Notes under the pieces: model-generated
Told to the model about the DNA's origin: nothing
Seen by the model: the letters and a program-made list of their open reading frames with translations, nothing else
The model's database searches: none
Program-made: the position numbers and the translations under genes
Source: Streptomyces sp. NBC_01717
GTDB lineage: Bacteria; Actinomycetota; Actinomycetes; Streptomycetales; Streptomycetaceae
DNA length: 64,000 bases
NCBI RefSeq assembly: GCF_036248255.1
Contig: NZ_CP109178.1
Coordinates: forward strand, 1,240,001-1,304,000
Direction: 5' to 3'
Shown here: positions 4,272-43,982 of the stretch, piece after piece
Position numbering within the stretch: position 1 is the first letter of the stretch
Layout: each line of letters begins with the position of its first letter

Positions 4272-4282
4272 GGAGGTCTCTG

Positions 4283-6024: not shown

Positions 6025-6170
6025 GGGCAGATCCACCGGACCGGCCCAGACGGCTCCGCCGCCGCCCCACGCCCCGGTGCGCCGCAACGTCGAGCTCCAC
6101 GGCACCGAGGTGGACCACAGCTACAGTCCCGACGCAACGCTCGGGCATGACTGGACAAAGGAGTTCCGCC

Positions 6171-7871
6171 ATGACCACCATCTGGCCGAAAGGGATGCCC
6201 CGCACCCTCGACTACCCCGACGGCACGATCGCGGATCTGCTCGCCGGATCCGCCCACGCCTACCCCGACCGTGCGGCGCTGATCGACGGAGATGAGCGGC
6301 TCACCTTCGCGGAGCTGTACGAGCGGTCCCTGCGGGTGGCCCAAGGGCTGCGCGAACAGGGCATCGCCCCGGACGACGCCGTCGCCGTCCACATGCCCAA
6401 CTCGATCTGGTTCACCGTCGCTTACTACGGCATCCTGCTCGCAGGCGCCTCCGTGGTGCCGGTCAACCCGACGCAGCCGCCCCTCGCGCTGCGCCGTCAG
6501 CTCGACGACTCGGGCGCGGTCGCGGTCTTCACCCACCCCTCCGTCGCCGCGCAGATGTCCGAAGCCCTGAAGGGCTCCGAGGCGGTCCGCCGCGTCTGTC
6601 TCGCACCGGCCACGGCCGCGGCCCCCGCCGGCGACCGGGCCCCCGCCGGATTCCCGGTCCCCACGGTCGAGTTCGACGACCTGATGAAGGCCGAGGCAGC
6701 GCCGGCTACGGCGGTGGACGGGGAAGCGGTCGCTCACCTCGCCTTCACCGGCGGCACGACGGGCGTGCCCAAGGCCGTCCGGGTCCTGCACCGCAACCTC
6801 TTCAGGAACGTGCTCCAGGTGGCGTGCTGGCGCAGCGCCGCACTCCCGCACACGGACGAGCAGGGCCACATCACGCTGCGCCATGTGACCGAGGCCCGGA
6901 CCCCGCACCACATTCCGATCGGCGCCGCGACCGGCATCTCCGTCGCCCCGCTCTTCCACGGCATGGGCATGGTCAGCCAGAGCATCTTCGTCGTCGCCGG
7001 GCTCACGGTCGTCGTGTTCGGCCGGTTCGATGCCGTCCGGTACCTGGACACCATCGAGCAGCTGGGCGTCCACGCCGTCACCGGCTCCCCCGCGCTGTGC
7101 CACGCCGTCCTCTCCGTACGGGACGTGCGGGAGCGCGACCTTTCGTGCGTACGGCTGGTCAGCAGCGGCTCGGCACCCATCAATCCGGCCGCGGCCGCGG
7201 AGCTCGCCGAGGTCTTCCCGAACGCCGTCGTCAGCGACGGTTACGGACTGACGGAGGCGACCATGGGCGTCTCGATCAGCCCGCTGGACCGCTCGACGCC
7301 ACGCCCGGAGGGCAGTACCGGCCTGGCACTCTTCGACACCGCGATCGAGATCCGGGAGACGGACGGTGTCACCCCGGTGGCGCCGGGCGAGAAGGGCGAG
7401 GTCTGGGTCCGCGGTCCGCAGGTCACGGCGGGCTACCTCGGCCATCCCGAACTCACCGCGGGACAGTACGTGGACGGCTGGCTGCGCACCGGTGACCTCG
7501 GCACGCTCGACGAGCAGGGCTGGCTGTCCCTGGTCGGCCGGGCGAAGGACATGCTCATCTACAAGGGGTACAACGTGTACCCCGGCCCGCTGGAGAACAT
7601 CCTGCGTGAGCACCCGGCGGTCGCCCAGGCCTCCGTCGTGGGCCGGCCGCACCCTGAGCACGGCGAGATCCCGGTCGCGTTCGTCTCCGTGAAGGCCGAG
7701 GCGGAAACGCCGGATCGGGCGGCGATCGCCGAGGAGCTGATGGCGTACGTCGCGGCGCGCGTCGCCCCGTACCAGCGGATCCGTGACGTGGTGGTCGTGG
7801 ACGAGCTGCCGCTCTCGGCGACGGGCAAGATCCTCAAGACGGAGCTGCGCAGGCGGGCGACCGACTCCTGA
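6171..7871 (+). CDS. Acyl-CoA synthetase / AMP-dependent ligase (566 aa)
   Basis: Activates a carboxylic acid to acyl-CoA via an acyl-adenylate. ANL-family motifs are present: P-loop-like FTGGTTGVPKAV, DGYGLTEAT, WLRTGDLG, and the C-terminal catalytic lysine in SATGKILKTELRR. Length is typical of long- or medium-chain acyl-CoA ligases. ATG follows AAGGAG. It is last in the forward operon, 146 nt after the hydratase, and is followed by a strong hairpin. The substrate cannot be read from sequence. Confidence 0.92.
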   Translation: MTTIWPKGMPRTLDYPDGTIADLLAGSAHAYPDRAALIDGDERLTFAELYERSLRVAQGLREQGIAPDDAVAVHMPNSIWFTVAYYGILLAGASVVPVNPTQPPLALRRQLDDSGAVAVFTHPSVAAQMSEALKGSEAVRRVCLAPATAAAPAGDRAPAGFPVPTVEFDDLMKAEAAPATAVDGEAVAHLAFTGGTTGVPKAVRVLHRNLFRNVLQVACWRSAALPHTDEQGHITLRHVTEARTPHHIPIGAATGISVAPLFHGMGMVSQSIFVVAGLTVVVFGRFDAVRYLDTIEQLGVHAVTGSPALCHAVLSVRDVRERDLSCVRLVSSGSAPINPAAAAELAEVFPNAVVSDGYGLTEATMGVSISPLDRSTPRPEGSTGLALFDTAIEIRETDGVTPVAPGEKGEVWVRGPQVTAGYLGHPELTAGQYVDGWLRTGDLGTLDEQGWLSLVGRAKDMLIYKGYNVYPGPLENILREHPAVAQASVVGRPHPEHGEIPVAFVSVKAEAETPDRAAIAEELMAYVAARVAPYQRIRDVVVVDELPLSATGKILKTELRRRATDS

Positions 7872-8128: not shown

Positions 8129-9997
8129 TTACGGCAGGGCGATCGGGAAGTTGCGCGCCGGCTTCTCCAGGAGGCCGTGGAAGGTGGCGAGGACGGTGAC
8201 ATCGCCCTCCACCGCCATCGCGCCCGAACCGATCGCCTCCGTGAAGGTGGTGCGCTGGGCGAGCACCATGTTGAGCGCGGCCCGCTCCAGCCGCACGGTC
8301 AGCTGTGGAGCCTCCCCACCCGGCGCGTCTCCCTTCATCGGGGTGAGCACGCCGTTGCCGACGAGGAGAGTGAACACCTCGTCGGTGTCGGTGAACTCCC
8401 AGCGCAGCAGCAGCCGGTGGGCCGCCGCCCGGGGACCGTCGAGGCGGACCGCCAGGGACTCGAAGATCTGCCCGGTGGCGAGGGCGGCGAGCATCTCGAC
8501 GCTCTCCTTGCCGGGAGCTCCGGTCCGGCGGGTCTCCTGGCCGGCCTCGCGGAGCTCCTTGGCGCCGGTGAGGTAGATGTTGCGCCAGGTGCCGTTCTCC
8601 TGGGCGAAGCCGAGCCGCTCGTAGGTGGCGATCTGCAGTTCGCGGGCCGAAACGTGCTCCGGTTCGGCGAAGAGCACATGGTTGAGCAGTTCGGCGGCCC
8701 AGCGCAGATCGCCGGTCTCGAACGCCTCGCGGGCCGTGGCGACGGTGGTGTCCGCGCCGCCGATGGCCGCGACGTACCGCTTGGCCTGCTCGACCGGCGG
8801 GTGCTGCCACAGATGCGCCGGGTTGCCGTCGTACCAGCCCATGTAGCGCTGGTACACCGCCTTGACGTTGTGGCTGATGGAGCCGTAGTAGCCGCGCACG
8901 CTCCAGGCCCGCCCCAGCTCGCCGGGGAAGGACTGGATCTCCTCGGCGATCTCGGGGCCGGTGAGCCCCTGGTTCATCAGCCGGACGGTCTGGTCGTGGA
9001 TGTACGCGTAGGCGTCGCGCTGCTCGACAAGCATCCGCATCACCTCGTCGTTGCCCCACGTCGGCCAGTTGTGGGAGCCGATGAGCACCTCGACCTGGTC
9101 GAAGAGCCTGATCGACTCGGTGATGTACGACGCCCAGGCGTGCGCGTCGCGGACCTGGGCGCCGCGCAGAGTGAGGATGTTGTGCAGCGAGTGGTTGACG
9201 TTCTCGGCGATGAGCAGGACTCGGTGGTCCGGCAGGTAGAAGTTCATCTCCGAGGGCGCCTCGGTGTCGGGCGTCAGCTGGAAGAACAGCCGTACACCGT
9301 CGACGACGAACTCCTGGCCGGTGCCGGTGACGGTGTCCGTCGGCGCGATGAGGCCGACGGTGCCGGTGGACAGGGCCTGGCCGAGGCCGAAGCCGACCGA
9401 GGCCTCGGCGCCGACGGGCAGCGAGCGGCCGTACATGTAGACGGCGCGGCGCATCATCGCCGGGCCGGCGAAGATGTTCTCGCTGACCGCGTGGTGCATG
9501 AACTCGTCCGGGGCGATGACCAGGCAGTCCCCGGCCGCCACCGCCTCGTTCGTGGTGACTCCGAGGACTCCGCCGAAGTGGTCGCCGTGGCTGTGCGTAT
9601 AGATCACGGCCTTGACGGTGCGCTCACCGCGGTTGCGGATGTACAGCCCGAGCGCCTCGGCGGCGACCTCCCTCGACGTCAGCGGGTCGACGACGACCAG
9701 ACCGGTCTCGCCCTCGATGATCGTCATGTTGGAGACGTCGAGGCCGCGAACCTGGTAGATGCCGGGTACGACCTCGAACAGGCCCTGCGCGGTGTTGAGC
9801 CGGCTCTGCCGCCACAGGCTCGGGTGCACCGTGTCGGGGCAGTCGTCCTTGTTCAGGAAGTCCCAGCGGTCGTTGTCCCAGACGACCCGGCCCGCCTCGT
9901 TGCGCACGACGCAGGGCTCCAACCTGTCGATCAGGCCGCGCGTGGCGTTGACCTGATCGGTGGTGTCGTCCCAGTCGAATACGGGTGTGGAAGGCAT
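8129..9997 (-). CDS. Alkyl sulfatase, metallo-beta-lactamase fold (SdsA1/BDS1-like, 622 aa)
   Basis: Hydrolyses alkyl sulfate esters to alcohol and sulfate. The MBL zinc motif THSHGDHFGG lies about residues 150-160. The family segment ENIFAGPAMMRRAVYMYG follows, then a dimerisation region, and an SCP2-like C-terminal domain (about residues 490-622) as in SdsA1. No signal peptide is evident, so cytoplasmic action is likely, unlike the exported Pseudomonas enzyme. It is last in an eight-gene reverse operon, 6 nt from the preceding dehydrogenase; the released alcohol would feed the SDRs, ligase and dehydrogenases upstream (inference). Confidence 0.9.
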   Translation of the reverse strand: MPSTPVFDWDDTTDQVNATRGLIDRLEPCVVRNEAGRVVWDNDRWDFLNKDDCPDTVHPSLWRQSRLNTAQGLFEVVPGIYQVRGLDVSNMTIIEGETGLVVVDPLTSREVAAEALGLYIRNRGERTVKAVIYTHSHGDHFGGVLGVTTNEAVAAGDCLVIAPDEFMHHAVSENIFAGPAMMRRAVYMYGRSLPVGAEASVGFGLGQALSTGTVGLIAPTDTVTGTGQEFVVDGVRLFFQLTPDTEAPSEMNFYLPDHRVLLIAENVNHSLHNILTLRGAQVRDAHAWASYITESIRLFDQVEVLIGSHNWPTWGNDEVMRMLVEQRDAYAYIHDQTVRLMNQGLTGPEIAEEIQSFPGELGRAWSVRGYYGSISHNVKAVYQRYMGWYDGNPAHLWQHPPVEQAKRYVAAIGGADTTVATAREAFETGDLRWAAELLNHVLFAEPEHVSARELQIATYERLGFAQENGTWRNIYLTGAKELREAGQETRRTGAPGKESVEMLAALATGQIFESLAVRLDGPRAAAHRLLLRWEFTDTDEVFTLLVGNGVLTPMKGDAPGGEAPQLTVRLERAALNMVLAQRTTFTEAIGSGAMAVEGDVTVLATFHGLLEKPARNFPIALP

Positions 9998-17504: not shown

Positions 17505-18680
17505 ATGCGTGACGCAGTGATCGTGGATGCCGTTCGAACCCCTGTCGGCAAGCGCGGCGGTTCCCTCTCCGGTATCCACGCCGTCGATCTCTCCGCCCAT
17601 GTCCTGACCGCCCTCGCCGAGCGCAACGGTCTCGACCCCGGCACCGTCGACGACGTCGTCTGGGGCACCGTCTCCCAGGTCGGCGAGCAGGCCGGTGTCG
17701 TCGGCCGTTTCGCGGCCCTCGCGGCCGGCTGGCCCGAGTCCGTACCCGGCGTCTCCGTCTCGCGCGCCTGCGGCTCCTCCCAGCAGTCCGTGCACTTCGC
17801 CGCCGGTCTGGTCACCGCCGGCCAGTACGACATCGCCGTCGCCGGCGGCGTCGAGTCGATGAGCCGCGTGCCGATGGGCTCGGCCCGCAGCGTCCCGACG
17901 GCCGGCAAGGCGTACGGCCCCCTGGTCCTGAACCGCTACTTCCCCGGCGGCGAGGGCGAGTTCGACCAAGGCGTCGGTGCCGAGCTGATAGCCGAGCAGT
18001 ACGGCCTGAGCCGCACGCAACTCGATCAGCACGCCCTGGACTCGCACGAGCGCGCCGCCCGCGCGATCGACGAGGGGCGCTTCAACTCCCAGATCACACC
18101 CGTCACGGTCACCGACCCAGACGGCACCACGCGCGTCTTCGACACCGACGAGGGCGTGCGGCGCGGCTCCACCCTGGAGAAGCTCGCCGGCCTGAAGACG
18201 CCCTTCAAGCAGGACGGCGTGGTGAGCGCCGGGAACTCCTCACAGATCTCCGACGGCGCCGCCGCGCTGCTCATCACCACCGGTGAGATCGCGCAGCGGA
18301 ACGGCTGGACCCCGATCGCCCGCGTGCACACCGCCGTTCTCGCCGGGGCCGACCCGGTCACCATGGCCCTCGGTCCCGCCCCGGCCACCGCCAAGGCGCT
18401 CAAGCGCTCCGGCCTGTCGATCGGCGACATCGGCGCCTTCGAGATCAACGAGGCGTTCGCCCCGGTCACCCTGGCCTGGCTCAAGGAGACCGGCGCCGAT
18501 CACGAGCTGATGAACCCGCTCGGCGGCGCCATGGCGATCGGCCACCCGCTCGGCGGCTCGGGCGCGCGCCTGATGACCACGCTGGTCCACCACATGCGCG
18601 ACAACAACATCCGCTACGGCCTGCAGGCCATGTGCGAGGCCGGCGGCATGGCCAACGCGACGATCCTCGAACTCCTCTGA
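17505..18680 (+). CDS. Acetyl-CoA acetyltransferase / thiolase, paralogue of 3105-4271 (391 aa)
   Basis: Nucleophile Cys89 in RACGSSQQ, NEAFAP, GHPLGGSGAR and a second Cys in MCEAGGMANA. N- and C-termini are almost the same as those of the thiolase at 3105, showing a recent shared ancestor. It is monocistronic, divergent from the eight-gene operon, and followed by a perfect 15-bp hairpin. It probably provides the thiolytic step for the reverse operon, which has no thiolase of its own. Confidence 0.95.
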   Translation: MRDAVIVDAVRTPVGKRGGSLSGIHAVDLSAHVLTALAERNGLDPGTVDDVVWGTVSQVGEQAGVVGRFAALAAGWPESVPGVSVSRACGSSQQSVHFAAGLVTAGQYDIAVAGGVESMSRVPMGSARSVPTAGKAYGPLVLNRYFPGGEGEFDQGVGAELIAEQYGLSRTQLDQHALDSHERAARAIDEGRFNSQITPVTVTDPDGTTRVFDTDEGVRRGSTLEKLAGLKTPFKQDGVVSAGNSSQISDGAAALLITTGEIAQRNGWTPIARVHTAVLAGADPVTMALGPAPATAKALKRSGLSIGDIGAFEINEAFAPVTLAWLKETGADHELMNPLGGAMAIGHPLGGSGARLMTTLVHHMRDNNIRYGLQAMCEAGGMANATILELL

Positions 18681-24103: not shown

Positions 24104-24215
24104 CCAGAGGCATCAGCAGTTGACCAGGTGGAGCCATGATGTCGCGTCGACCCGCCACAGCACAGTCGACGTCACTCAGGATGTGCGACAGAAGGAGCGG
24201 AAGGTTCGCGCACTG

Positions 24216-25928
24216 ATGCGGCGGGCAGTGACGCGGCAGGCCGCTCGAGCAGGCGAAGGGCTGCGGAGACACCGGCGGTGGCTGTTCGCACTCGTCGTGG
24301 TCGTGCTCCTCGCCGAGATGGCGTTCGCGATGGTCACGACGGCCGTGAAGCAGACCCCGACCATCGACGAGCCCGTGTACGTGGGCACGGCGGTGGTCTA
24401 CCTGCAGCAGCACAGCCTGCGGTACAACCCTGAGCATCCGCCGCTGGGGAAGCTGCTCATCGCGTCAGGGACGGCCTTCGCCGATCCGCACCTCGACCGC
24501 GCCTTCGTCGGCGATCAGACGGAGCTCGGACGGCACCTCCTGTACGAATCGGGCAATGATCCGTGGCGTCTGATGCTGTGGGCGCGATTGCCGGTGATCG
24601 TGCTGACGCTACTGTTCGGGCTGGTCGTCCTCGCGTTCGCCCGTGACCTCGCCGGTCCCGTGGGCGGGTTGGTGGCGCTCGGTCTGTACGCGTTCTCGCC
24701 CGACATCATCGCGCACGGGTCGCTGGCCACACTTGACGTACCGGCGGCCGGCTTCCTGCTGACGTCGGTCTGGTTGCTGTGGCGGGCGCGGCGGCGGCCT
24801 CGCCGCTGCCTCCCGCTCGCCGGAGGGGCGCTGGGCGCGGCCGTGGCCACGAAGATGAGCGTGTTGCCCGCGGTTCCGGTGCTGTTGCTCCTCGTCGTCC
24901 TGTCGGTCTGCCACGCCCGCCGGACGCACAACCTCGGCCCCCGCGGGCGGATGCGGCTTCTCCTGCTCGGCGTGGCGGCCGCATCGGTCGTGGCGCTGGT
25001 CTCGATCGCCGTGGTGTGGGCCACCTACCTCGCCGTCGACCCGCAGTTGCGATGGGCCGGTCCCGAGACCCTGCCGGTCACCCACGGGCTGCGCGCGCTG
25101 GTCGTCGACCGGCTCCCGTTCCCGGAGCCGTACCGGGACGGTATGCGCATCCAGTTCGGCTTCGAGAACATGGCGTGGGGCGGCTTCCTGTTCGGCCGCC
25201 ACTACCACGGTTCGCTGTGGTACTACCTGCCGACCGCGCTCCTGATCAAAACGCCGCTGGGCATGCTCGCGCTGTGGCTGACCGGAGTCGTCGCCACCGT
25301 GACGGTGCCCCGGCTGCGGTCCGCGGCACCGTACGTACTGGTCCCCACGGTGGTTCTGCTGGCCGCGGCCATGTCCGGGTCCCGCGATCTCGGCGTCCGG
25401 TACGCCCTCTTCATGCCGATGTTCCTGGCAGTCGCCGCGGCGGGCGTGGCCGTCTTCCGGCGGCGGGCGGCGCACATCGCGTCCGCGGCGCTGATCCTGT
25501 GCGTCGTGGTGAGCTCGCTGCGGACGTACCCGTACTACCTGCCGTACTCCAACGAGGCGTTCGGCGGCCCGGCCAGGACTCACCTGCGCCTGCACGACTC
25601 GAACGTCGATTGGGGTCAGGACCTGGGCCGGTTGGCCACCCGTCTGCGGCAGCGGTACCCGGACGAGAAGATCTGGCTCGTCTACAAAGGCAGCGGCGTG
25701 CCCTCCTTCTACGGCATCGACGCGTCCGACCCGCGCAAGGTCCCCCCGAGCGAGGTTCACGGCCTCCTCGTCGTGTCGGACTCCTCGATCGCAAAGGCCG
25801 ATGACCGACTGGCGACGCTGATCAACACCAGCGCGCGCATCGACGAGGTGGGCCACTCGATCACGATCTACCGCCGGGCAACGCGCGTGCCCGGAGCCCT
25901 CGAGGCGAAGCGGTCCCAGCGCGAGTAG
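24216..25928 (+). CDS. Membrane glycosyltransferase, PMT/ArnT (GT39/GT83) type (about 570 aa)
   Basis: A polytopic protein with about 10-12 hydrophobic helices. The first extracytoplasmic loop carries the acidic motif TIDEPVY and then NPEHPPLGKLL, as in polyprenyl-phosphate-sugar-dependent mannosyl- or arabinosyl-transferases. GSRDLGVRYALF and YLPYSNEAFGG follow, and the C-terminal soluble part begins near DSNVDWGQD. Start is uncertain: ATG 24216 places TM1 soon after a basic tail, but GTG 24183 and TTG 24120 are also in frame. It follows the sulfatase-like gene by about 110 nt; the acceptor is unknown. Confidence 0.8.
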   Translation: MRRAVTRQAARAGEGLRRHRRWLFALVVVVLLAEMAFAMVTTAVKQTPTIDEPVYVGTAVVYLQQHSLRYNPEHPPLGKLLIASGTAFADPHLDRAFVGDQTELGRHLLYESGNDPWRLMLWARLPVIVLTLLFGLVVLAFARDLAGPVGGLVALGLYAFSPDIIAHGSLATLDVPAAGFLLTSVWLLWRARRRPRRCLPLAGGALGAAVATKMSVLPAVPVLLLLVVLSVCHARRTHNLGPRGRMRLLLLGVAAASVVALVSIAVVWATYLAVDPQLRWAGPETLPVTHGLRALVVDRLPFPEPYRDGMRIQFGFENMAWGGFLFGRHYHGSLWYYLPTALLIKTPLGMLALWLTGVVATVTVPRLRSAAPYVLVPTVVLLAAAMSGSRDLGVRYALFMPMFLAVAAAGVAVFRRRAAHIASAALILCVVVSSLRTYPYYLPYSNEAFGGPARTHLRLHDSNVDWGQDLGRLATRLRQRYPDEKIWLVYKGSGVPSFYGIDASDPRKVPPSEVHGLLVVSDSSIAKADDRLATLINTSARIDEVGHSITIYRRATRVPGALEAKRSQRE

Positions 25929-25971: not shown

Positions 25972-26730
25972 TCATGCGTTTTCGAGCATCGTCTCCCGGA
26001 CCTCGCCGGCGTTCTCGCGGGACCTGACGCACCACAGCCACCCGATGTCACGCGCGAAGGACCAGACGAGCAGCACCAGCGCCCCGAGGACTGCTGCATA
26101 CGAGGGCAGGCGCGGGATGATCCCGGCGCCGACCGCGAGAAGAACGATCCCCTGCAGGGCGGCCACCGTCTTACGGGCCATGCTCGGACGTAGGGGCCCA
26201 CGCAACCACGGCAGTACCCGGGCCGCCACGACGAATACGTAGCGCATGGCACCGATCAGCAGCACCCAGGCGCCCAGCGACGTGGCGACGTGGACGCTGA
26301 GCACCAGAATGAGGAAGGCGTCGACTTCCATGTCGAAGCGCGCCCCCAGGGAGGACGCCGTCCCGGTGCGCCGGGCGACCTGGCCGTCGACTGCATCGAG
26401 GATCAGCGCCACCGTGGCGAGCGCGGCCAGGACCACGACCGGCGGTCGGCTCACGAAGGAGTCTGCGACCAGCGCGGCCACACCCCCGACGAGCGTCGTG
26501 CGGGCCAGGGTGACGCCGTTGGCGGGACCGAAGGGCCTGTTGCCCGCCTGGTCCAGTGCACGTGTGAGGACGACCCAGACGCCGGCCGTGAAGCCCAGGC
26601 CTGTCAGCCATCCCGCGGCTCCCAGTCCGGTCGTCATGCCGAGAAGAACCAGCAGCAGTGTCTGCCCTGCTGCCCCCCACGCCGGCTCCGGGCGCAGCAG
26701 ACGAGTTCTGTATGTGCTACTCCGGGTCAC
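25972..26730 (-). CDS. CDP-alcohol phosphatidyltransferase family protein (252 aa)
   Basis: An integral membrane enzyme of phospholipid-type head-group transfer. The family signature DG-x2-AR-x8-G-x3-D-x3-D is present as DAVDGQVARRTGTASSLGARF followed by D-MEV-D. About six hydrophobic helices. GTG at 26730 has AGGAGG upstream; an ATG ten codons earlier has none. It is divergent from the MDR oxidoreductase at 26844, which starts the pterin-type cluster, so the two may share a promoter region. The alcohol acceptor is not predictable. Confidence 0.85.
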   Translation of the reverse strand: MTRSSTYRTRLLRPEPAWGAAGQTLLLVLLGMTTGLGAAGWLTGLGFTAGVWVVLTRALDQAGNRPFGPANGVTLARTTLVGGVAALVADSFVSRPPVVVLAALATVALILDAVDGQVARRTGTASSLGARFDMEVDAFLILVLSVHVATSLGAWVLLIGAMRYVFVVAARVLPWLRGPLRPSMARKTVAALQGIVLLAVGAGIIPRLPSYAAVLGALVLLVWSFARDIGWLWCVRSRENAGEVRETMLENA

Positions 26731-26843
26731 CGCGCGCCGCCCTCCTGCCGTGTGACACATTCGCCGAGAACCGCGTACGTTTACGCGGTCTCACGATCAT
26801 CAGAACGTAAACCATCGCCCGAGCGTTCAGCAGGAGGTCATCG

Positions 26844-27851
26844 ATGGAGCGCACCGCACGCGCCTTCTGGCTCCGCTCCCCCGGCCACGGCGAGATAAGG
26901 GATGTTCCGCTGCCGGAACCGGCCGGCGACGACGTCGTGGTGCGCACGCTGTTCTCCGGTGTGAGCCGTGGCACCGAGAGCCTCGTCTTTCGCGGCGGCG
27001 TACCGGAGAGTCAGCACACCGCGATGCGGGCGCCGTTTCAGGACGGCGATTTCCCCGGTCCCGTCAAGTACGGCTATCTCAACGTCGGCCTTGTCGAGGA
27101 AGGACCGGGGCACCTCGTGGGCCGTACGGTCTTCTGCCTCTACCCGCACCAGAGCCGGTACGTCGTCCCTGCGAGTGCTGTGACCCCGGTGCCGGACACC
27201 GTCCCCGCCGGGCGGGCGGTGCTGGCCGGAACGGTGGAGACGGCGGTGAACGCCCTGTGGGACGCCGCACCGCTGATCGGCGACCGGATCGCCGTCGTCG
27301 GAGCAGGCATGATCGGCTGCTCCGTCGCAGCGCTTCTCGCCCGGTACCCGGCCGTCCGCGTCCAGTTGGTCGATTCCGATCCCACCCGCGCCGCTGTCGC
27401 CGGCGCGCTGGGCGTCGACTTCGCGCTCCCCGAACATGCCCTGGGCGACTGCGACCTCGTGGTCCACGCCAGCGCCACCGAAGCCGGGCTCACCCGCTCG
27501 CTGGAGCTCCTCGCCCCGGAGGGCACGGTCCTGGAACTGAGCTGGTACGGCGACCGGCGGGTCAGCCTGCCGCTCGGGGAGGCCTTCCACTCCGGTCGTC
27601 TGGTCCTGCGCGGCAGCCAAGTGGGGACCGTGTCTCCGGCCCGGAGCTCCCGCCGTACCTTCGCCGATCGGCTTGCCCTCTCGCTCGATCTGCTCGCCGA
27701 CCCCGCCTTCGACGCACTGATCACCGGCGAATGCGCCTTCGAGGAGCTGCCGTCGGTGCTGGCCGGGATCGGCAAGGGTGATCTTCCCGGGTTGTGCCAC
27801 CGCGTGCTGTACGACACGACCCCAGTGCCACGGGTTCCGGCCGAGCGTTGA
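26844..27851 (+). CDS. Medium-chain dehydrogenase/reductase, zinc-less ADH type (335 aa)
   Basis: GroES-like N-terminal region (VVVRTLFSGVSRGTESLVF) and a Rossmann domain with IAVVGAGMIGCSVAALLA at about residue 150. The catalytic-zinc GHE motif of classical alcohol dehydrogenases is missing (KYGYLNVGLVEEG stands there), so 'zinc-binding ADH' would be misleading. ATG follows AGGAGG. It is first of five close forward genes (oxidoreductase, PTPS homologue, glycosyltransferase, methyltransferase, flippase). Probably oxidises or reduces a pathway intermediate. Confidence 0.85.
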   Translation: MERTARAFWLRSPGHGEIRDVPLPEPAGDDVVVRTLFSGVSRGTESLVFRGGVPESQHTAMRAPFQDGDFPGPVKYGYLNVGLVEEGPGHLVGRTVFCLYPHQSRYVVPASAVTPVPDTVPAGRAVLAGTVETAVNALWDAAPLIGDRIAVVGAGMIGCSVAALLARYPAVRVQLVDSDPTRAAVAGALGVDFALPEHALGDCDLVVHASATEAGLTRSLELLAPEGTVLELSWYGDRRVSLPLGEAFHSGRLVLRGSQVGTVSPARSSRRTFADRLALSLDLLADPAFDALITGECAFEELPSVLAGIGKGDLPGLCHRVLYDTTPVPRVPAER

Positions 27852-27962
27852 ACGAATCTCGCCATTGAACCTGTCGGGCCCTGAACGCACAGCGTGTTCC
27901 AGCCGTACTGAACGACAAGGGCCGCGAGCGGCCACACGGGTCGGACCAGGAGGTCACAGCCG

Positions 27963-28361
27963 TTGTTCAGTGTCACCGTCCGCGAGCACTTCATGATCGC
28001 CCACAGTTTCCACGGGAAGGTGTTCGGTCCCGCGCAGCGTCTGCACGGAGCGACGTACGTGGTGGACGCCTCCTTTCGCCGTCCCGAGCTGGACTCCGAC
28101 AACATCGTCGTCGACATCGGGCTGGCCACCACTGAACTCAAACGCGTGGTGGGCGAGTTCAACTACCGCAACCTCGATGACGAATCCGAGTTCGCGGACA
28201 TCAACACCTCGACGGAATTCCTGGCCAAGGTCATCGCCGACCGCCTGGCCGACCAGGTGCGCGCCGGAGCACTGGGCGAGGGCGCACATGGTCTGACCGG
28301 CATCACGGTGACCCTGCACGAATCACACATCGCATGGGCGAGCTACGAGCGGCTCCTGTGA
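27963..28361 (+). CDS. 6-pyruvoyltetrahydropterin synthase / QueD homologue lacking catalytic residues (132 aa)
   Basis: T-fold protein with the family opening F-x-V-x-V-x3-F and IAH (His14), then RLHGATY. In active enzymes the motif is C-x3-HGH: here the Cys position is Ala24 and the second zinc His is Ala30, so metal binding and PTPS chemistry should be impaired. This matches what is known for S. coelicolor SCO6650, a PTPS fold without zinc or catalytic triad that keeps a pterin-like pocket. TTG start is supported by AGGAGGT at the correct distance. It overlaps the next gene by GTGA. Confidence 0.85.
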
Positions 28362-29491
28362 ACCCCTCCGCTGCCACCACGGTGACCGGGCGCTCGGTCA
28401 TCGTGGTGATGCCCGGTGGCGTCGACGATCCGTCGGCGCCGAGTGGGGGCAACACCTACGACCGCCGAGTGTGCCGGGACCTGCCCCGGATCGGATGGCA
28501 GGTCCACGAGTACGCCGTCGCGGGCACCTGGCCACAGCCCCGAACCACCGCGCGTACGGAACTGGCCCGGATGCTCAGGGAGTCGGCGGACGGCGCCGTC
28601 GTCCTCCTCGACGGACTCGTCGCCTGCGCCGTCCCCGACATCGTCGTCCCCGAAGCAGAGCGGCTGCGCCTGGTGGTGCTCGTCCACCTGCCGCTGGGCG
28701 ACGAGACAGGCCTCACCCCTGCCATGGCGGCAGCTCTGAACGCTGGAGAGCGCAGGACGCTGCAGGCCGCGGCGGCGGTCGTGGCGACCAGTGGCTGGGC
28801 AGCCGACCGGCTCGTGGCGCACCACGGACTCGACCCCGGCCGGGTCCACGTCGCCGCCCCCGGAGCCGACACGGCACCCCTCGCGACCGGCACCGCAACC
28901 GGTACCGACCGCGCCCCGAGCCTGCTCTGCGTGGCCTCTGTCACTCCGCGCAAAGGGCAGCTCCAGCTGGTGGAGTCCCTCACGGCCGTCTCGGACCTTC
29001 CGTGGAACTGCGTCTGCGTCGGCGGACTGGGCCAGGACCCCGGCTACGTCACCCGGCTCCGGGAACTGATCGAGCGGTGCGGCCTCGACGACCGGGTACA
29101 CCTTGTCGGCCCGCGGACAGGCACCGAGCTGAACGCGAGCTACGCCGCAGCTGACCTGCTGCTGCTCGCCTCGCACGCCGAGACGTACGGCATGGTTGCG
29201 ACGGAGGCTCTTGCCCACGGCGTCCCCGTACTGGCGACGGCGGTCGGTGGGCTCCCGGAAGCGGTCGGACACGCACCCGACAGGGGCGTGCCGGGCTTCC
29301 TGGTACCAGCGCAGGACCCGGCAGCATTCGCCTCGGCGTTGCGCCTCTGGCTCGGTGAGCCGGACGAACGCCGACGTTCGCAAGAGGCTGCCATGGCTCG
29401 GCGCACTGCGCTGGCCGGCTGGGACACGACGTCGCGCAGTGTGGCCGCGGTGCTGGAACAACTCCGCAAGGAATCTCAGGAGGCCGCGTGA
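28358..29491 (+). CDS. Glycosyltransferase family 4 (GT-B, 377 aa)
   Basis: A retaining GT-B enzyme with the donor-binding C-terminal half: [39 protein letters not shown], then [26 protein letters not shown] (the E-x7-E motif). The GTG start overlaps the PTPS stop (GTGA); an upstream ATG at 28334 is in frame but overlaps more. It is coupled by another GTGA to the methyltransferase. Its presence implies that the cluster's product, or a lipid carrier, is glycosylated. Confidence 0.88.
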
Positions 29492-30456
29492 GCGGGACCG
29501 GTGCAACTCGCTATGCCCCGGAGTGGCTGGCGCTGCGGGAGGGTCCCGATGCGGCCGCCCGCGCATCCGGACTCCTCGGCCCGCTGCGGCGGCACCTGGA
29601 GGCCGCGGCCGGTGGGCCCGGAGGTGCAGAACCGACGCCAGGCCTCTCGACGTCGGTGATCCGCGATCTCGGGTGCGGCACCGGTTCCATGGGGCGCTGG
29701 CTCGCTCCCCGGCTGAACGGTCCCCAGCACTGGATCCTGCACGACCATGACCCGGGTCTGCTCGACCTGGCCGCTGCTCGGACGCCTGAGAGGGCTGCCG
29801 ACGGCAGCCCCGTCACCGTCACAACAGAACGCGGCGATGTCGCGCGACTGACCGCGAACGTCCTCTCAGGCACCTCGCTGGTGACGGCCTCCGCTCTGCT
29901 GGACCTGCTCACCCGCGAAGAGCTGAACAGGCTGGCCGCGGCCTGCGCCGGGGCCGGCTGCCCGGCCCTGCTGTCGCTCTCCGTGGTGGGAAGGGTCCAC
30001 CTCACCCCGGCGGACCCGCTGGACGCCGAGATCGTGCACGCGTTCAACGCGCACCAGCGCCGCGTCGACCAGGGCCGCCGGCTCCTCGGGCCCGACGCCG
30101 TCGCGGCGGCGTCCGAGGCCTTCGCACGTCATGGCCTGACCGTACGAGAACAGCCGAGCCCGTGGCGGCTCGGTTCCGGTCCTCGTTCTCTGCCCTGCGA
30201 CGGGTCGCGCCGGACGCGAGAGGTCGATCCGTACGGATCCGGAAGTCGGGACCTGGGCACCTGCGAGTCCGCGCTGACGGCGGAGTGGCTTCGGGGCTGG
30301 GTCGGCGCCGCTCGTGACCAGCGGCCGGACCTCGCACAGCGTGCCGATGCGTATCTGCGGCGCCGCCTGGCGGAGTGCTGGGCAGGTGAGTTGCAGGTGG
30401 TGGTGCATCACAAGGATGTACTGGCCCTGCCCGGCCCGACGGGTGGATCTTCGTGA
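29488..30456 (+). CDS. Class I SAM-dependent methyltransferase (322 aa)
   Basis: SAM-binding motif I is IRDLGCGTGSMGRWLA (residues 58-73), with an acidic motif II-like ILHDHDPGLLDLA. GTG start overlaps the glycosyltransferase stop, and the stop overlaps the next ATG (ATGA). Residues about 231-260 (rich in Ser, Arg and Gly, near bases 30178-30267) look unlike the rest and interrupt the expected SPWRLG...ALTAEWL run, so may be a recent in-frame insertion. The substrate is unknown; the cluster suggests a pterin- or pyrimidine-derived compound or a glycolipid. Confidence 0.82.
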   Translation: MSGTGATRYAPEWLALREGPDAAARASGLLGPLRRHLEAAAGGPGGAEPTPGLSTSVIRDLGCGTGSMGRWLAPRLNGPQHWILHDHDPGLLDLAAARTPERAADGSPVTVTTERGDVARLTANVLSGTSLVTASALLDLLTREELNRLAAACAGAGCPALLSLSVVGRVHLTPADPLDAEIVHAFNAHQRRVDQGRRLLGPDAVAAASEAFARHGLTVREQPSPWRLGSGPRSLPCDGSRRTREVDPYGSGSRDLGTCESALTAEWLRGWVGAARDQRPDLAQRADAYLRRRLAECWAGELQVVVHHKDVLALPGPTGGSS

Positions 30457-32441
30457 CGCCGCGGGTCGTGCGGGCCCGTCTCGGCATGCTCGCCGGAACG
30501 GCCATCGTCGCGGGGCTGCTGTGGTGGCAGGGCACCGCCGTCGTCCTGAACGGCGTGCGCGGGATCGACGGCCCCACACTGTTGGCCGCTCTCGGTCTCG
30601 GCGTGCTCACCACCGTGTGCAGTGCGTGGCGTTGGCGCCTGGTGGCGAAAGGGCTGAGCGTACGGCTGCCGCTGGGTCGGGCCGTCGCCGACTACTACCG
30701 TGCTCTGTTCCTGAACGCGGCGCTGCCCGGTGGCGTCCTCGGCGACGTACACCGTGGTGTGCGGCACGGGCAGAGCGCAGGGGACGTCGGCCGGGGGGTC
30801 CGCACCGTCGTCCTCGAGCGCGTTGCGGGCCAAGTGGTCCTTGCCGCAGTCGGCGTGACGCTCCTGCTCACGCAGCCCTCCCTGGCACTGGACAGGATCG
30901 GCCATCTCGCCGATCGGACCGCTACTGCGCCGGGTGCCCTGTCCGCCCTCCTCGTGCTGTCCGGCGTGGTGATCGTGGGTGCTGTCCGGCTCCGCGGGAG
31001 GCAGAGCACATCCCGGTTGCACCGAGCGGTTCGGACCACGCTGGCCGAAGCGCGCCTCGGACTGCTCGCCCCCGGAAGCTGGCCGGGGGTGCTGATCTCG
31101 TCCCTTGCCGTGCTGGCAGGACATCTCGGCATGTTCCTTCTGGCCGCCCGAACCGCAGGATCGACGGCGCCGGCGACCGAACTCGTGCCGCTGATGGTGC
31201 TGGCACTTCTCGCCATGGCTCTGCCGCTGAACGTCGGGGGCTGGGGGCCCAGGGAAGGGGTCACCGCATGGGCCTTCGGAGCCGCGGGCATGAGTGCCGC
31301 GCAGGGACTGAGCGTCGCCGTGGTGTACGGACTACTCACCCTCGTCGCGAGCCTGCCCGGTATCGGCGTGCTCGTCACCCAGTGGTTCACCGGGATGCGC
31401 CGTCCGCAGATCGAGCTCGAAGAGAGTGTCCTCGCCGAGAGCGGCGCGCCGGGTCGGCGGACGGAGCGCATCGCGCATCAGCTCCGGGCCGGGGAAGCCG
31501 AGCCCCGGGACGCCGTCACCGAGCAGGACCGGTGCCACTGTGAGGTAGAGGCGGTGCAGCGCCCGCGCGTGGAGGAAGCGCGACACGGTGATTCCGCCAC
31601 CCTCGACAAGCACGCGGCCCAGCCCACGGCGTGCGAGTTCCCGCAGCAGACGTCGAGGGGCGAACGCGGCGGCGTCGGGCAGGGGCAGTATGTCGATGCC
31701 CTCCATGGCCGGAACGGCCTGCCCCCGGTCCTTGTCCGCGCCCACCACCCACAGGGTGGGTGCTGCCCCGTCACTGAACACTCGGTGGCGCAGCGGTACC
31801 CGGCGGTGCGGATCGAGGACGACGCGAACCGGGTTGCTGCCCGCGCAGGTACGGACCGTCAGTTGGGGATCGTCCGCGACGGCGGTGCCGGCACCGATGA
31901 CCACCGCGTCGCAGAGGGCACGCAGGCGGTGCAGATGGTCGCGGTCCTCCGTGCCCGTGACGTAGTCGGCGTCTCCGGTACGGCTCGCGATGAATCCGTC
32001 CAGACTCTGTCCCAGCTGCGCGATGGCGAAGCGCGGACCGCCCAGACAGAGCGGCAGATAGCGGTCGGCGAGGATGTCCGCATCGGGCGAGGCGCATCCC
32101 CACCGGCGTCGGCCGTCGGTTCCCCGGATCAGTCCGGCGGCCTCGGCGTCCGCCTCGGACCGGATGCCGCGCAGCCGCTCCCAGGCTTCCGCCGCATCAA
32201 GGATGCCGTCGCGCTGTTCCGAGGAGCGGCCGGTCACCGCGTTCCCCGCCGGACGACGGCCGACGGCCGGCTGTCCGCGGCGCCGGACGGCCCGGACCCG
32301 GGGTCCGCCGGAACCAGGAGCTCATCCGGTGCCAGAAGCGAGAGGTATTCAGCGAAGGAATCGACGAGACCGGTCAGCAACTGCTTGCCCTTTTCGGCGG
32401 ATGCCAGGGAAGGACGGCCGATCACACCGGATTCCGTATAG
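30453..32441 (+). CDS. Flippase-like (LPG-synthase TM/AglD family) membrane protein with long antisense C-terminal tail
   Basis: Residues 1 to about 315 form a polytopic protein with the family signatures RWRLVAKGLSV, YYRALFLNAALPGGVLGD and ALPLNVGGWGPREGVTAW. These integral proteins are linked to lipid or glycolipid export. No stop follows: the frame continues about 340 residues antisense through the reductase gene to 32441. The recognisable domain ends at GVLVTQWFTGM near 31400, exactly where the opposing reductase also passes its usual end. The functional protein is probably about 320 aa with a meaningless tail, or the gene has lost its stop by deletion. Overlaps the methyltransferase by ATGA. 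Confidence 0.7.
   Translation: MTPRVVRARLGMLAGTAIVAGLLWWQGTAVVLNGVRGIDGPTLLAALGLGVLTTVCSAWRWRLVAKGLSVRLPLGRAVADYYRALFLNAALPGGVLGDVHRGVRHGQSAGDVGRGVRTVVLERVAGQVVLAAVGVTLLLTQPSLALDRIGHLADRTATAPGALSALLVLSGVVIVGAVRLRGRQSTSRLHRAVRTTLAEARLGLLAPGSWPGVLISSLAVLAGHLGMFLLAARTAGSTAPATELVPLMVLALLAMALPLNVGGWGPREGVTAWAFGAAGMSAAQGLSVAVVYGLLTLVASLPGIGVLVTQWFTGMRRPQIELEESVLAESGAPGRRTERIAHQLRAGEAEPRDAVTEQDRCHCEVEAVQRPRVEEARHGDSATLDKHAAQPTACEFPQQTSRGERGGVGQGQYVDALHGRNGLPPVLVRAHHPQGGCCPVTEHSVAQRYPAVRIEDDANRVAARAGTDRQLGIVRDGGAGTDDHRVAEGTQAVQMVAVLRARDVVGVSGTARDESVQTLSQLRDGEARTAQTERQIAVGEDVRIGRGASPPASAVGSPDQSGGLGVRLGPDAAQPLPGFRRIKDAVALFRGAAGHRVPRRTTADGRLSAAPDGPDPGSAGTRSSSGARSERYSAKESTRPVSNCLPFSADAREGRPITPDSV
31332..32237 (-). 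CDS. RibD-type reductase domain protein (301 aa)
   Basis: DHFR-like fold of the RibD C-terminal reductase: RFAIAQLGQSLDGFIAS, ALCDAVVIGAGTAVADDP, NPVRVVLDPHRRVP, RVLVEGGGITVSRFL and RLYLTVAPVLLGDG. There is no deaminase domain; an N-terminal extension of about 65 residues takes its place. GTG start overlaps the creatininase stop (GTGA). The last 23 residues lie beyond the family's usual end and are antisense to a membrane helix of the flippase gene. Probably NADPH-dependent reduction of a ribosylamino-pyrimidine or related pathway intermediate. Confidence 0.85.
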   Translation of the reverse strand: MTGRSSEQRDGILDAAEAWERLRGIRSEADAEAAGLIRGTDGRRRWGCASPDADILADRYLPLCLGGPRFAIAQLGQSLDGFIASRTGDADYVTGTEDRDHLHRLRALCDAVVIGAGTAVADDPQLTVRTCAGSNPVRVVLDPHRRVPLRHRVFSDGAAPTLWVVGADKDRGQAVPAMEGIDILPLPDAAAFAPRRLLRELARRGLGRVLVEGGGITVSRFLHARALHRLYLTVAPVLLGDGVPGLGFPGPELMRDALRPPTRRAALGEDTLFELDLRTAHPGEPLGDEHADTGQARDEGE

Positions 32442-33064
32442 GCCCGCATACCGAGAGTGAGCAAATGCTTCCGGTCGTCGGCGAGGAAATCGGAGGTCTC
32501 ATAACCGGGGCGGATCATTCCTGGATCCACATTCAGCAGGATGGACGTTTCCAATTCTCCCGCATGCATGTCGCTGTATGAGGACGTACTCAAGCCGGCC
32601 CTGTCCCGCGCCCTGCCCCAGTCGGCCGATCCGGGGAACAGAGCCATCCGAGTCCCCGTTCCCGCCGACTCCTGAACTGCGTTACGCAGCACATAGTTTC
32701 CACCGTGCCCGTTGATCAGAACCAGATTATTGATACCGGATCGACGGAGCGATTCAGCGATGTCCCGGACAACGGCACACAAGGTGGCCGCAGAAATGCT
32801 GACCGTTCCCGGCCAAGCGGCGTGTTCGTGCGAGCAGGAGATCGTCACCGGAGGCAGTCGGTGCACCGCATGGGCGGCAGCGATCTCCCGGGCGATGGCG
32901 CAGGCCACGACCGTATCGGTCATCAGGGGCAGATACGGCCCATGTTGCTCGAAGCTGCCGATGGGAAGGACCGCGACACCGGCCCGACCGGCCCCCACAT
33001 CCGCCGTCGTCGCGTCCGGTGACAACAGATCGGATATCCGCGTGCGCCCTTGCCGTTCACTCAT
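32234..33064 (-). CDS. Creatininase-family amidohydrolase (276 aa)
   Basis: Metal ligands of the creatininase/ArfB family are visible: Glu39, His41 and Asp50 in GSFEQHGPYLPLMTD, then NGHGGN and DMHAGELETS. Archaeal members (ArfB) deformylate the product of GTP cyclohydrolase III. With a GCH II paralogue of altered active site directly divergent, the same role is plausible here. ATG at 33064 is chosen because homology begins only after it; the longer frame from 33280 would run across the divergent promoter. It overlaps the reductase gene by GTGA. Base composition is lower in GC than its neighbours. Confidence 0.85.
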   Translation of the reverse strand: MSERQGRTRISDLLSPDATTADVGAGRAGVAVLPIGSFEQHGPYLPLMTDTVVACAIAREIAAAHAVHRLPPVTISCSHEHAAWPGTVSISAATLCAVVRDIAESLRRSGINNLVLINGHGGNYVLRNAVQESAGTGTRMALFPGSADWGRARDRAGLSTSSYSDMHAGELETSILLNVDPGMIRPGYETSDFLADDRKHLLTLGMRAYTESGVIGRPSLASAEKGKQLLTGLVDSFAEYLSLLAPDELLVPADPGSGPSGAADSRPSAVVRRGTR

Positions 33065-33278
33065 GTTTCCCGACCCATTCCTTCTTCGCGCCACGAGACC
33101 TGGCCACCGGCCGGCCCGAATAGGACAGCACACGGAGGGAAGTTCCGTACGCGCCCACGAGAGCAGGCTACGCAAAGTCGATGCATTCATCAGTCGAACA
33201 CGATGACCTGGCAGACCAGTTGTCTTCCTGTCGTCGACTTCCGGCCCACCGGTGAAGGCTACCCGATATGATCGGGCC
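33065..33278. promoter_or_regulatory. Divergent promoter region between creatininase and cyclohydrolase genes
   Basis: A 214-bp gap with lower GC. A -10-like TATGAT at 33268-33273 is spaced for a leaderless start of the cyclohydrolase at 33279. No convincing -35 is visible, so an activator or alternative sigma factor may be needed. No riboswitch fold (such as FMN) was recognised. Confidence 0.4.
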
Positions 33279-33935
33279 ATGATAGAGAGCGATGGCGCAC
33301 ACCGCGACAGCGCGCGTTCAACGGGCGCTGAACGAGCGACAACTGTCCAGCTGTCAACCGAGCACGGTGTGTTCCGTGCTGTCGGCTACTGGGATCACAA
33401 TCGTAGGGACGAACAAATAGCGCTGGTATACGGCGACATCGAGGGAGACGATGCGCTCACCCGGGTACATTCGGAGTGTTTGACCGGAGATACTTTTGGG
33501 TCCAACCATTGCGAGTGCGGGGACCAATTGTCCGCGGCGCTACGCGCCATCGTGGGCGAAGGACGCGGCGTACTCATCTACCTGCGGGGTCACGAAGGCC
33601 GGGGGATCGGCCTGTTGGCCAAGCTCCGAGCGATGCAGCTCCAGGCGGAGGGACTTGACACGGTCGAGGCGAATATCGCGCTCGGGCTCCCGGTCGACGC
33701 CCGCAACTACCAGGTGGCGGCAGAGATTCTGCACGACCTCGGTGTCCGATCCGTGCGGCTGCTGTCGAACAACCCACGCAAGCGCGAGGCGCTGCTGCAG
33801 CACGGCATCAAGGTCACCGAACAGGTTCCGCTCCTGACAGAACCGCGTGAGGAGAATCTCGTCTACCTGCGGACCAAGCGAGAACGCCTTGGCCATCACC
33901 TGCCGCATCTGGATGGCGGGGTCGACCGGACCTGA
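33279..33935 (+). CDS. GTP cyclohydrolase II paralogue with Tyr-to-Met active-site change (218 aa)
   Basis: It opens the imidazole ring of GTP. The zinc triad is intact: Cys67, Cys78 and Cys80 in HSECLTGDTFGSNHCECGDQ. The Arg/Glu-rich RGHEGRGIGL and LLSNNPRK follow. Aligned with E. coli RibA, catalytic-site Tyr105 (KIRAY) is replaced by Met119 (KLRAM). In S. coelicolor SCO6655 the same change makes the enzyme stop at the formylated FAPy nucleotide. The ATG at 33279 is 6 nt after TATGAT, suggesting a leaderless transcript; GTG 33252 is an alternative. No RibB domain is fused. Divergent from the creatininase gene. Confidence 0.88.
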   Translation: MIESDGAHRDSARSTGAERATTVQLSTEHGVFRAVGYWDHNRRDEQIALVYGDIEGDDALTRVHSECLTGDTFGSNHCECGDQLSAALRAIVGEGRGVLIYLRGHEGRGIGLLAKLRAMQLQAEGLDTVEANIALGLPVDARNYQVAAEILHDLGVRSVRLLSNNPRKREALLQHGIKVTEQVPLLTEPREENLVYLRTKRERLGHHLPHLDGGVDRT

Positions 33936-42540: not shown

Positions 42541-43982
42541 TAGGGCTTGGTCAGGTTCGTATGGGGGTGGGTATGTTGCGGTGGCAGGTGGGGCAGGCGC
42601 CGACCCAGAGGGCGAGGAGTGTCTGGAGTTCGCGGAGGACCTGGTAGAGGCTCAGACCTGCGCTGAGTCTTTTGGGTGGTGTGCCAGTCGTTGCAGGGTG
42701 CAGAAGGCATGAGCTGCGGAGACGAGGGTGACGTGGTGATGCCAGCCGTTCCAGGTGCGGCCTTCGAAGTGGGCAAGTCCCAGGGCCTGTTTCATCTCGC
42801 GGTAGTCGTGCTCGATGCGCCAGCGTAGTTTGGCCAGCCGCACCAGTGTGGCCAGCGGCATCCCGGAAGGCAGGTTCGAGAGCCAGAACTGCACCGGCTC
42901 GGGCTCGGTGGCGGGCCATTCGGCCAGCAGCCAGCGCTCTGGTAGTTCTGGACCGTCGCCGGCTGTGCGGGCACCGCGTCCGGCCGGTCGGACGCGCAGA
43001 GCGACGAAGCGTGAGTGCATGCGCTTGAAGCCGCTTTGGCCCTGGCCTGGCCGGGATCCTTCCCGCCAGGACACCGGTCTCGCAGCAGCCCGGCCGGCCG
43101 CGATGACCAAATTTTTCATGGTCTGTGCAGGCTCGGGATACTGCATCTTCGGTGGCCGGCCGGTGCCCGCATAGGCAGGCTGGACAGGCCGGGCGCCGGC
43201 CCGATGGGCGGTGTGGCGGGAAGAAATGCCCACCGCATAAGGCAGGTTGCGTTCCTCCAAGCCCAGACGGAAGGCGGCGGCATCACCGTATCCGGCGTCC
43301 GCGACGACCAAGGGGAGGTCGATGCCCCACGAGCGGGTCTCATCGATCATGTCCAGGGCCAGCTGCCACTTCTCCACATGCCCCGCCTGGGAGGGAATGC
43401 CGCAGCGGCCCCGGCGGGCGACCTTGTCCGCATCCGCCTCCGGCGAGCCCGGATCCCAGGAAGCGGGCAGGAACAGCCGCCAGTTCACCGCGGCCGAGGC
43501 ATGATCGCGGGCCAGGTGCAACGACACCCCGACCTGACAATTGGTGACCTTGCCCGCGGTGCCGGTGTACTGCCGGGACACACACGCCGAGGCGTCCCCG
43601 TCCTTCAAAAAGCCGGTGTCATCGACGATCAGCGCCTCCGCACCGATCACATCCTGCATCTTCCAGGCCAGCCGGGCCCGCACATGCGCTGGATCCCACG
43701 GGCTGGTAGTCACGAAGTGGGCCAGTGCCTGCCGGTTGCCGTCCTCGCCCAGACGCGCCGCCATCGGCTCCACCGACTTGCGCCGACCCTCCAGCAGCAG
43801 CCCACGCACATACACCTGCCCCCACCGCCGCTGATCCGCACGGAAGAACCCGTCGAACATCTCCGTCGTGAATGCCTCCAGGTCCTCCCGGACCCCGGCC
43901 ATCTCTTCAGGTGTCACACCACCTCAACGACACTCACCAACAAGCAGACACGCCACCCACGAGTGAAGCTGACCAAGCCCTA
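42541..43982 (-). mobile_element. IS701-family insertion sequence (1442 bp)
   Basis: Terminal inverted repeats TAGGGCTTGGTCAG at 42541 and its complement ending at 43982, extending imperfectly a few bases inward. Both ends are flanked by CTAG (42537-42540 and 43983-43986), the 4-bp YTAR-type target duplication known for the IS701 family. It carries one transposase on the reverse strand. It abuts an IS630-type element, sharing the CTAG at its right edge. Confidence 0.92.
42652..43917 (-). CDS. IS701-family DDE transposase (421 aa, possible -1 frameshift extension)
   Basis: Catalytic residues of the family are visible: Asp in LIVDDTGFLKDGD, Asp in VVADAGYGD, and Glu in the RWRIEHDYREMKQALGL segment. 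Length is near normal. Just before its stop, at 42676-42670, the heptamer CCCAAAA sits in the correct phase for -1 slippage. The -1 frame then continues for about 40 codons (AGLSLYQVLRELQTLLALW, then CPTCHRN) to 42551, resembling the C-terminus I would expect for this family. Either programmed frameshifting or a recent 1-nt mutation would explain it. Confidence 0.9.
   Translation of the reverse strand: MTPEEMAGVREDLEAFTTEMFDGFFRADQRRWGQVYVRGLLLEGRRKSVEPMAARLGEDGNRQALAHFVTTSPWDPAHVRARLAWKMQDVIGAEALIVDDTGFLKDGDASACVSRQYTGTAGKVTNCQVGVSLHLARDHASAAVNWRLFLPASWDPGSPEADADKVARRGRCGIPSQAGHVEKWQLALDMIDETRSWGIDLPLVVADAGYGDAAAFRLGLEERNLPYAVGISSRHTAHRAGARPVQPAYAGTGRPPKMQYPEPAQTMKNLVIAAGRAAARPVSWREGSRPGQGQSGFKRMHSRFVALRVRPAGRGARTAGDGPELPERWLLAEWPATEPEPVQFWLSNLPSGMPLATLVRLAKLRWRIEHDYREMKQALGLAHFEGRTWNGWHHHVTLVSAAHAFCTLQRLAHHPKDSAQV

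Follow-up and report, generated by a model that had tools for sequence, protein, structure and literature searches.

A window of 64,000 nucleotides from the 10.2 Mb genome of Streptomyces sp. NBC_01717 (C1:1240001-1304000; positions below refer to this window) holds a cluster of about ten genes that is a real, conserved unit across many soil bacteria, the actinomycetes. Eight of its genes, here lettered A to H, code for a dehydrogenase-like protein (A), a degenerate 6-pyruvoyltetrahydropterin synthase (PTPS) fold (B), a glycosyltransferase (C), a methyltransferase (D), a membrane protein (E), a pyrimidine reductase (F), a creatininase-family protein (G) and a guanosine triphosphate (GTP) cyclohydrolase II (GCHII; H). 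With a probability of about one half, we read the unit as a conserved actinobacterial pathway other than riboflavin synthesis, in which a GTP-derived compound, a 2-amino-pyrimidine or pterin-like, would be directed to the cell envelope. The new result is that the presence of G tracks a single residue of H, as read from the sequences of the two genes and their relatives.

The loci compared were picked solely by gene B, a member of the SCO6650 family. They comprise the 80 that rank highest in similarity among at least 486, and 39 stretches with clear matches outside the genus of the window, taken from a class and a phylum sample with weak matches omitted. One locus occurs twice (L101 is L064), hence 119 distinct loci, the window included, from 120 stretches. 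By profile searches, A is found in 114 of the 119 loci, C in 115, X (a phosphatidyltransferase that the conserved unit adds) in 106, E in 105, D in 102, H in 93 and G in 75. Missing genes are partly due to contig ends that cut the stretches (e.g. L138 and L139) and to loci with a solitary B (L070, L097 and L098). The first-pass annotation had treated the eight genes as one cluster, and their homologues clearly do co-occur in other genomes, A and C above all. It had also counted the RibD_C reductase as a member, which does not hold as a fixed rule: F, or a second reductase type (F'), is present in just 42 loci.

Clustering of the flanking genes gave no extra gene as common as the members of the unit, the next family being found in 32 of 81 loci. 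Five Actinomadura loci (L038, L058, L072, L080 and L092) carry H-X-A-B-C-D-E in this order on the same strand and G on the other; L031, deposited as Actinomadura, is without C, G and H. Within the genus of the window, 19 of 37 genomes have B at an identity of at least 75%, and the same 19 have an orthologue of H at 69% or more, at least; the remaining 18 have neither. Matches to the B family occur in 60 of the 394 genomes of the class sample and, for the phylum sample, in 89 of 396. The latter reach at least 50% identity in 10 genomes, and the matches below this level are probably ordinary PTPS-family proteins.

In H the GCHII domain and the zinc motif (C-x10-C-x-C) are intact, and residue 128 is Met (KLRAMQLQ) where Tyr is expected: all 19 non-cluster GCHII rows used for comparison, the RibBA of the same genome included, have Tyr. 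We take this residue to be the deformylation switch of GCHII, as in SCO6655 of S. coelicolor. According to Spoonamore and Bandarian, SCO6655 reportedly yields the formylaminopyrimidine (FAPy) since a Met (Met120) replaces the Tyr needed for deformylation.

When the cluster cyclohydrolases are divided by the presence of G, a clear pattern can be seen. Of the 93 cluster H, 75 share the locus with G, and all 75 are non-Tyr: 60 Met, 9 His, 5 Leu and 1 Gln. Without G, 17 of 18 have Tyr, and these are accompanied by F' in 14 loci, by the window type of F in two and by neither in one. The exception, L119, has Leu, and there a G gene lies about 10 kb from E. Further, G is never present without H in the 119 loci. 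The creatininase had been put forward as a deformylase candidate from the letters of the window alone, and this link (75 of 75 non-Tyr with G, 1 of 18 without) gives it specific support.

The metal-site-type motifs of G (EQHG, TDT, NGHGGN and HAGE) are all present. On the curated ArfB model it reaches 38.3 bits, far under the cut-off of 180, and what is claimed here is a deformylase role, not ArfB membership. BrbF of S. meliloti, annotated as a creatininase, carries out FAPy deformylation that feeds riboflavin, and it is without sequence similarity to ArfB, as described in the part of the published account considered here (PMC9478397). By its putative reaction, G would resemble both formamidases, which likewise pair with a route that retains the formyl group. 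It differs from BrbF, in a comparison of roles and not of the sequences directly, in that it travels with the A-B-C core while BrbF serves riboflavin. In our view G is probably a FAPy deformylase, and a reason is thereby offered for a cyclohydrolase that halts at FAPy: a partner deformylase exists.

It is quite unlikely, given the variety at the switch, that G instead cleaves another cyclic amide or a peptide, like the mycofactocin peptidase MftE, with the loss of Tyr in H as a lineage marker that travels along. MftE is the best NCBIfam score of G (139.4 bits), but its cut-off of 172 is missed. Independent switches are few, and four other genomes hold homologues of G, with 56-64% identity, away from the cluster; two of these genomes (L035 and L050) have a Tyr-type H in the cluster and yet this paralogue elsewhere. 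On the other hand, the switch residue ranges over Met, His, Leu and Gln and is never Tyr beside G, as expected if G took over deformylation. The four paralogues lie in L170, L171, L172 and L173; in the stretches around the first three no other cluster gene was called, and in L170, L172 and L173 a helix-turn-helix regulator-like gene, judged by its first residues only, is located upstream.

The history of the two traits was followed on a core tree of A and B (47 rows after thinning of Streptomyces, with L119 treated as G-bearing). Here, G and the non-Tyr type each need three changes and their switches agree, with two independent pairs on supported branches and three on the best tree. On the tree of H the non-Tyr type needs one or two changes, while the Tyr-type cluster H need three, two of which are made unavoidable by supported branches; a long-branch warning applies here. 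From these three changes, the cluster seems to have gained GCHII more than once, and the deformylase only where the GCHII is without Tyr. In general the entry steps are well supported, about as far as sequence allows.

The step after deformylation would be a reduction. F scores above the cut-off for the RibD_C domain and below that of TIGR00227 (122.2 bits, cut-off 150.15). In profile searches the N-terminal deaminase domain is absent from F, with TIGR00326 matching the C-terminal part only, and the best match in PDB is 6p8c, a 2,5-diamino-6-ribosylamino-pyrimidinone 5'-phosphate reductase (expectation value 3e-22). F' is the type found in Tyr-type clusters; the best model for that of L035 is an archaeal reductase, at 119 bits and below cut-off. 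Reductases without deaminase are present in 42 loci, and in three (L041, L135 and L137) a GCHII is fused to RibD_C, again without deaminase. The domain content of F, F' and these fusions suggests that the pathway passes via a ribityl pyrimidine with the 2-amino group kept.

Among the 19 same-genus genomes with the cluster, F is in the cluster in four and F' elsewhere in 14; the miss is G001, which is 79% complete. F' is also found in 3 of the 18 same-genus genomes without the cluster. For cluster genomes of other genera that have no F in the cluster, F' was found elsewhere in 16 of 16 checked, in two of them as two pieces. A reductase requirement was considered as proof of the pathway and set aside: F' elsewhere may merely mark a clade, a canonical-looking RibD being missing (by score) in 15 of the 17 same-genus genomes with F'. 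In the genus of the window a RibD_C protein and a GCHII of the Tyr type are encoded together at a separate locus (L176-L180), in several cases with a MarR-like gene (by eye) between them. For one group of genomes, a locus of this type appears to stand in for the canonical RibD.

Several observations weigh against our reading of the pathway. In many of the G-bearing clusters F is not found nearby. Of eight places where F' lies elsewhere, it is fused to a deaminase in L176 and stands beside a deaminase-type gene in L181 and L183 (by Pfam) and in L182 (by a similar start); in L177, L178 and L180 a fusion is suggested by length, and L179 shows no deaminase. With a deaminase in four of the eight places, F' may be a riboflavin enzyme. 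Further, a fixed role for H is opposed by its absence from 27 of the 120 stretches, and 10 of 16 distinct cluster genomes without H that were checked have one GCHII match in total, presumably the housekeeping enzyme. Finally, the agreeing switches of G and H on the core tree are too few for significance.

If H, G and F are taken by themselves they would equal the first three steps towards flavin, and they could then feed the riboflavin or F420 pathway as an alternative or duplicate source of ribityl-pyrimidine, with the other genes unrelated. A creatininase-type formamidase does serve riboflavin in S. meliloti, according to the part of the BrbF account considered above. We consider this very unlikely. 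The genome of the window has a complete riboflavin operon of its own elsewhere (L175), with RibD, RibE, a PnuC-like gene, RibBA and RibH, in line with the first-pass proposal of a GTP-derived pathway separate from riboflavin. An orthologue of H occurs only alongside B (among the 37 same-genus genomes, in all 19 that have B and in none of the 18 that do not). There is no lumazine, riboflavin or FO synthase among the identified genes of the unit, a statement that covers the unit and not the flanks of the relatives. In S. coelicolor, the expression of SCO6655 runs opposite to the predicted riboflavin flux, with r -0.61 in the portion of the source considered (PMC2853524).

In comparison with the archaeal-order entry to riboflavin and F420, the proposed pathway would share all three reactions and their order, with reduction without deamination. 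It differs in using GCHII and not GCHIII, and none of the identified genes of the unit codes for a flavin or deazaflavin enzyme. The naming of the product as a pterin fares less well than its separateness from riboflavin: the entry enzymes yield a pyrimidine, and nothing here points to ring closure.

B is a member of the SCO6650 family by sequence, and matches 3d7j (SCO6650) end to end (residues 1-132, expectation value 3e-65). In the alignment D51, N70, D72, E85 and E120 are found in all 120 rows, one of which is a duplicate, and H14 and H28 in 118. We assume that E120 corresponds to the pterin-binding Glu of PTPS, which holds the 2-amino-4-oxo ring, and assign the zinc His residues and the triad likewise. 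HGH has become HGA; two His, an Asp and the Glu are kept, but neither the catalytic Cys nor the catalytic His remains. The three-His zinc site and the Cys/Asp/His triad, of which only Asp is kept, are thus incomplete, and B does not pass as an active PTPS. SCO6650 is likewise said to have no zinc and no PTPS activity. Among the 120 matches listed in a protein-database search with B, just generic PTPS-type or hypothetical names are found. Solitary copies of an SCO6650-type PTPS occur in L006, L070, L097 and L098, with no cluster genes in the examined stretch; in the last three, the copy lies in a common neighbourhood of unrelated genes.

The partners of B are less specific. For A, the structure model has a predicted local distance difference test score (pLDDT) of 92 and the zinc ligands are missing; a fold search returned generic polyol and alcohol dehydrogenases of the medium-chain dehydrogenase/reductase (MDR) type alone, which does not fix the substrate. 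For D, the PDB profile search was uninformative; L114 and L120 (by Pfam) and L105 (by a similar start) have other methyltransferases close to the cluster. C reaches 106 bits on the MshA model, far under the cut-off of 462. By PDB profile its highest score is to 6kih (Tll1590, 135 bits), followed by the "predicted glycosyltransferases" 3c4q/3c48 (125 bits), presumably MshA, by the inositol-phosphate glycosyltransferase 7qsg (93 bits) and by the tetrahydrobiopterin glucosyltransferase 5ze7 (53 bits).

The last of these matches, to a UDP-glucose:tetrahydrobiopterin glucosyltransferase, would fit a soluble, secreted glycoside of a pyrimidine or pterin, such as a pigment, an ultraviolet screen or an antibiotic. 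A-D with H, G and F would then make the compound and E just export it, X and Z being bystanders or makers of a carrier lipid. This would also fit the distant clusters of minimal content (L133, L134 and L136), which hold A-B-C alone of the gene set. Further, SCO6655 is listed in a table whose genes are proposed to serve metabolism of the antibiotic type; in the part of the source considered, the table legend takes most of the genes to increase in expression during stationary phase and to be candidates for antibiotic synthesis (PMC2853524). However, several other GT4 enzymes far outscore the pterin enzyme for C, X is nearly as constant as the core and stands beside A in most loci, and X and Z are fused in 11 loci of the cluster. 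A secreted glycoside is rather unlikely.

The membrane side of the unit was only hinted at in the first-pass annotation, where a lipid-linked product was one idea. It gains support from X (106 of 119 loci), from the loci with X and Z in one frame, from the LtaP/LtaS fold of Z, a phosphotransferase that is sometimes part of the unit, and from the LPG_synthase_TM domain of E. In X the motif of cytidine diphosphate (CDP)-alcohol phosphotransferases, D-x2-D-G-x2-A-R-x8-G-x3-D-x3-D, is intact. Z has no match to a curated family; it matches 4uop with an expectation value of 8e-11 and probability 1.00 (template modelling (TM)-score 0.39 by query, 0.51 by target), and shares with the lipid head-group phosphotransferases LtaS and LtaP the fold and the catalytic-type residues, which are invariant.

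The envelope-directed pathway could then run as follows. H would open GTP and, because the switch Tyr is missing, halt at 2-amino-5-formylamino-6-ribosylamino-4(3H)-pyrimidinone 5'-phosphate (FAPy-P), from which G would strip the formyl group to give a diaminopyrimidine. F or an equivalent reductase would turn the ribosyl chain into ribityl without deamination of the base, so that the 2-amino group is kept. B may hold the 2-amino-4-oxo ring via its conserved Glu and act on the ring or the side chain together with the zinc-free A, while C would glycosylate and D methylate. X would couple the product, a polyol or sugar, to a lipid or similar alcohol activated by CDP, E may aid movement of the product across the membrane, and Z, where present, may transfer a phospho-head-group outside. 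Gene content, conservation, the link between G and the switch residue, the fusions and the folds are seen directly; for A-D the reactions and their order, as well as the membrane steps and the product, are inferred.

A more specific version, in which the product is a membrane lipid with a glycosylated, methylated, GTP-derived 2-amino-ribitylpyrimidine or pterin head group that the X-Z enzyme passes to a surface acceptor, is rather unlikely as it stands. If true, such a nucleobase-headed phospholipid would be a new class of actinomycete envelope molecule, possibly redox- or light-active. In either form, a cluster of unexplained purpose, present in 19 of 37 Streptomyces genomes sampled and also in numerous other actinomycetes, is turned into a set of testable reactions, and the lipid fraction is indicated as a place to seek the product. 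Full-text literature searches, whose coverage excluded most subscription papers, gave no paper that names the product of the cluster.

The closest known system is the SCO6650-6655 region of S. coelicolor, with which the window shares the full-length match of B to 3d7j and an H with Met at the place reported for SCO6655. Beyond this, F is present in the window, and X and sometimes Z belong to the conserved unit. Published work on that region reportedly concerns single proteins. Pterin glycosides made by GT4 enzymes (5ze7) resemble the cluster in that a GT4 enzyme stands beside a PTPS-fold protein. The route to such glycosides begins with GTP cyclohydrolase I and uses an active PTPS, while the cluster has GCHII, an inactive-looking PTPS fold and a C with a match of 53 bits.

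The genes of the window are listed in Table 1. All eight genes of the first-pass annotation are found at the positions it gave and, by Pfam and NCBIfam profile matches, in the families it named; its interpretation as a whole is partly supported. A single overlapping operon is not what the layout shows, with A-E on the plus strand, F and G on the minus strand and H on the plus strand, and GTGA overlaps at only four of seven junctions (B/C, C/D, D/E and G/F). The optional neighbour Y is weakly linked to the cluster: besides the window, a homologue is near the cluster only in L032 and L104.

Table 1. Genes of the cluster and its neighbours in the window.
Gene	Predicted product	Position	Strand	Support and remarks
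Z	LtaS/LtaP-fold membrane phosphotransferase	22463-24103		fold search
Y	PMT/GT39-type membrane glycosyltransferase, optional neighbour	24120..25928	+	PF02366 41.5 bits
X	CDP-alcohol phosphatidyltransferase	25972..26760	-	PF01066 49.8 bits
A	Dehydrogenase of the MDR type lacking zinc ligands (SGVSRGTE), with a fold like polyol/alcohol dehydrogenases	26844..27851	+	
B	SCO6650-family degenerate PTPS (T-fold)	27963..28361	+	PF01242; TTG start
C	GT4 glycosyltransferase	28358..29491	+	closest curated model MshA
D	Class I S-adenosylmethionine-dependent methyltransferase	29488..30456	+	PF13649 32 bits
E	LPG_synthase_TM (flippase-like) membrane protein	30453..32441	+	PF03706 120.6 bits
F	Stand-alone RibD_C-type pyrimidine reductase	31332..32237	-	PF01872 126 bits
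G	Creatininase-family amidohydrolase	32234..33055	-	PF02633 207.7 bits; longest frame from 33280
H	GTP cyclohydrolase II	33252..33935	+	PF00925 219 bits; start uncertain

The TTG start of B is preceded by GGAGG. The domain of E ends at about 31390, and the rest of its frame stays open to the stop, antisense to F and G; the length of this tail differs among relatives. In 18 of 19 relatives with the window type of F beside E, the stop of E overlaps F by 122 to 1256 bases, and in L137 the two genes narrowly miss overlapping.

Beside the distant cluster of L135, genes similar to phytoene synthase and phytoene desaturase (by eye, from the first residues) are found at 3972-6358. Elsewhere in the window there are a DDE_5 transposase (42652-43902) and an IS110-type transposase (56848-58017). 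Two thiolase-like proteins (by eye) with near-identical starts are located on the plus strand 13 kb apart, at 3105-4271 and 17505-18680, and an alkyl sulfatase (8129-9997) sits between them.

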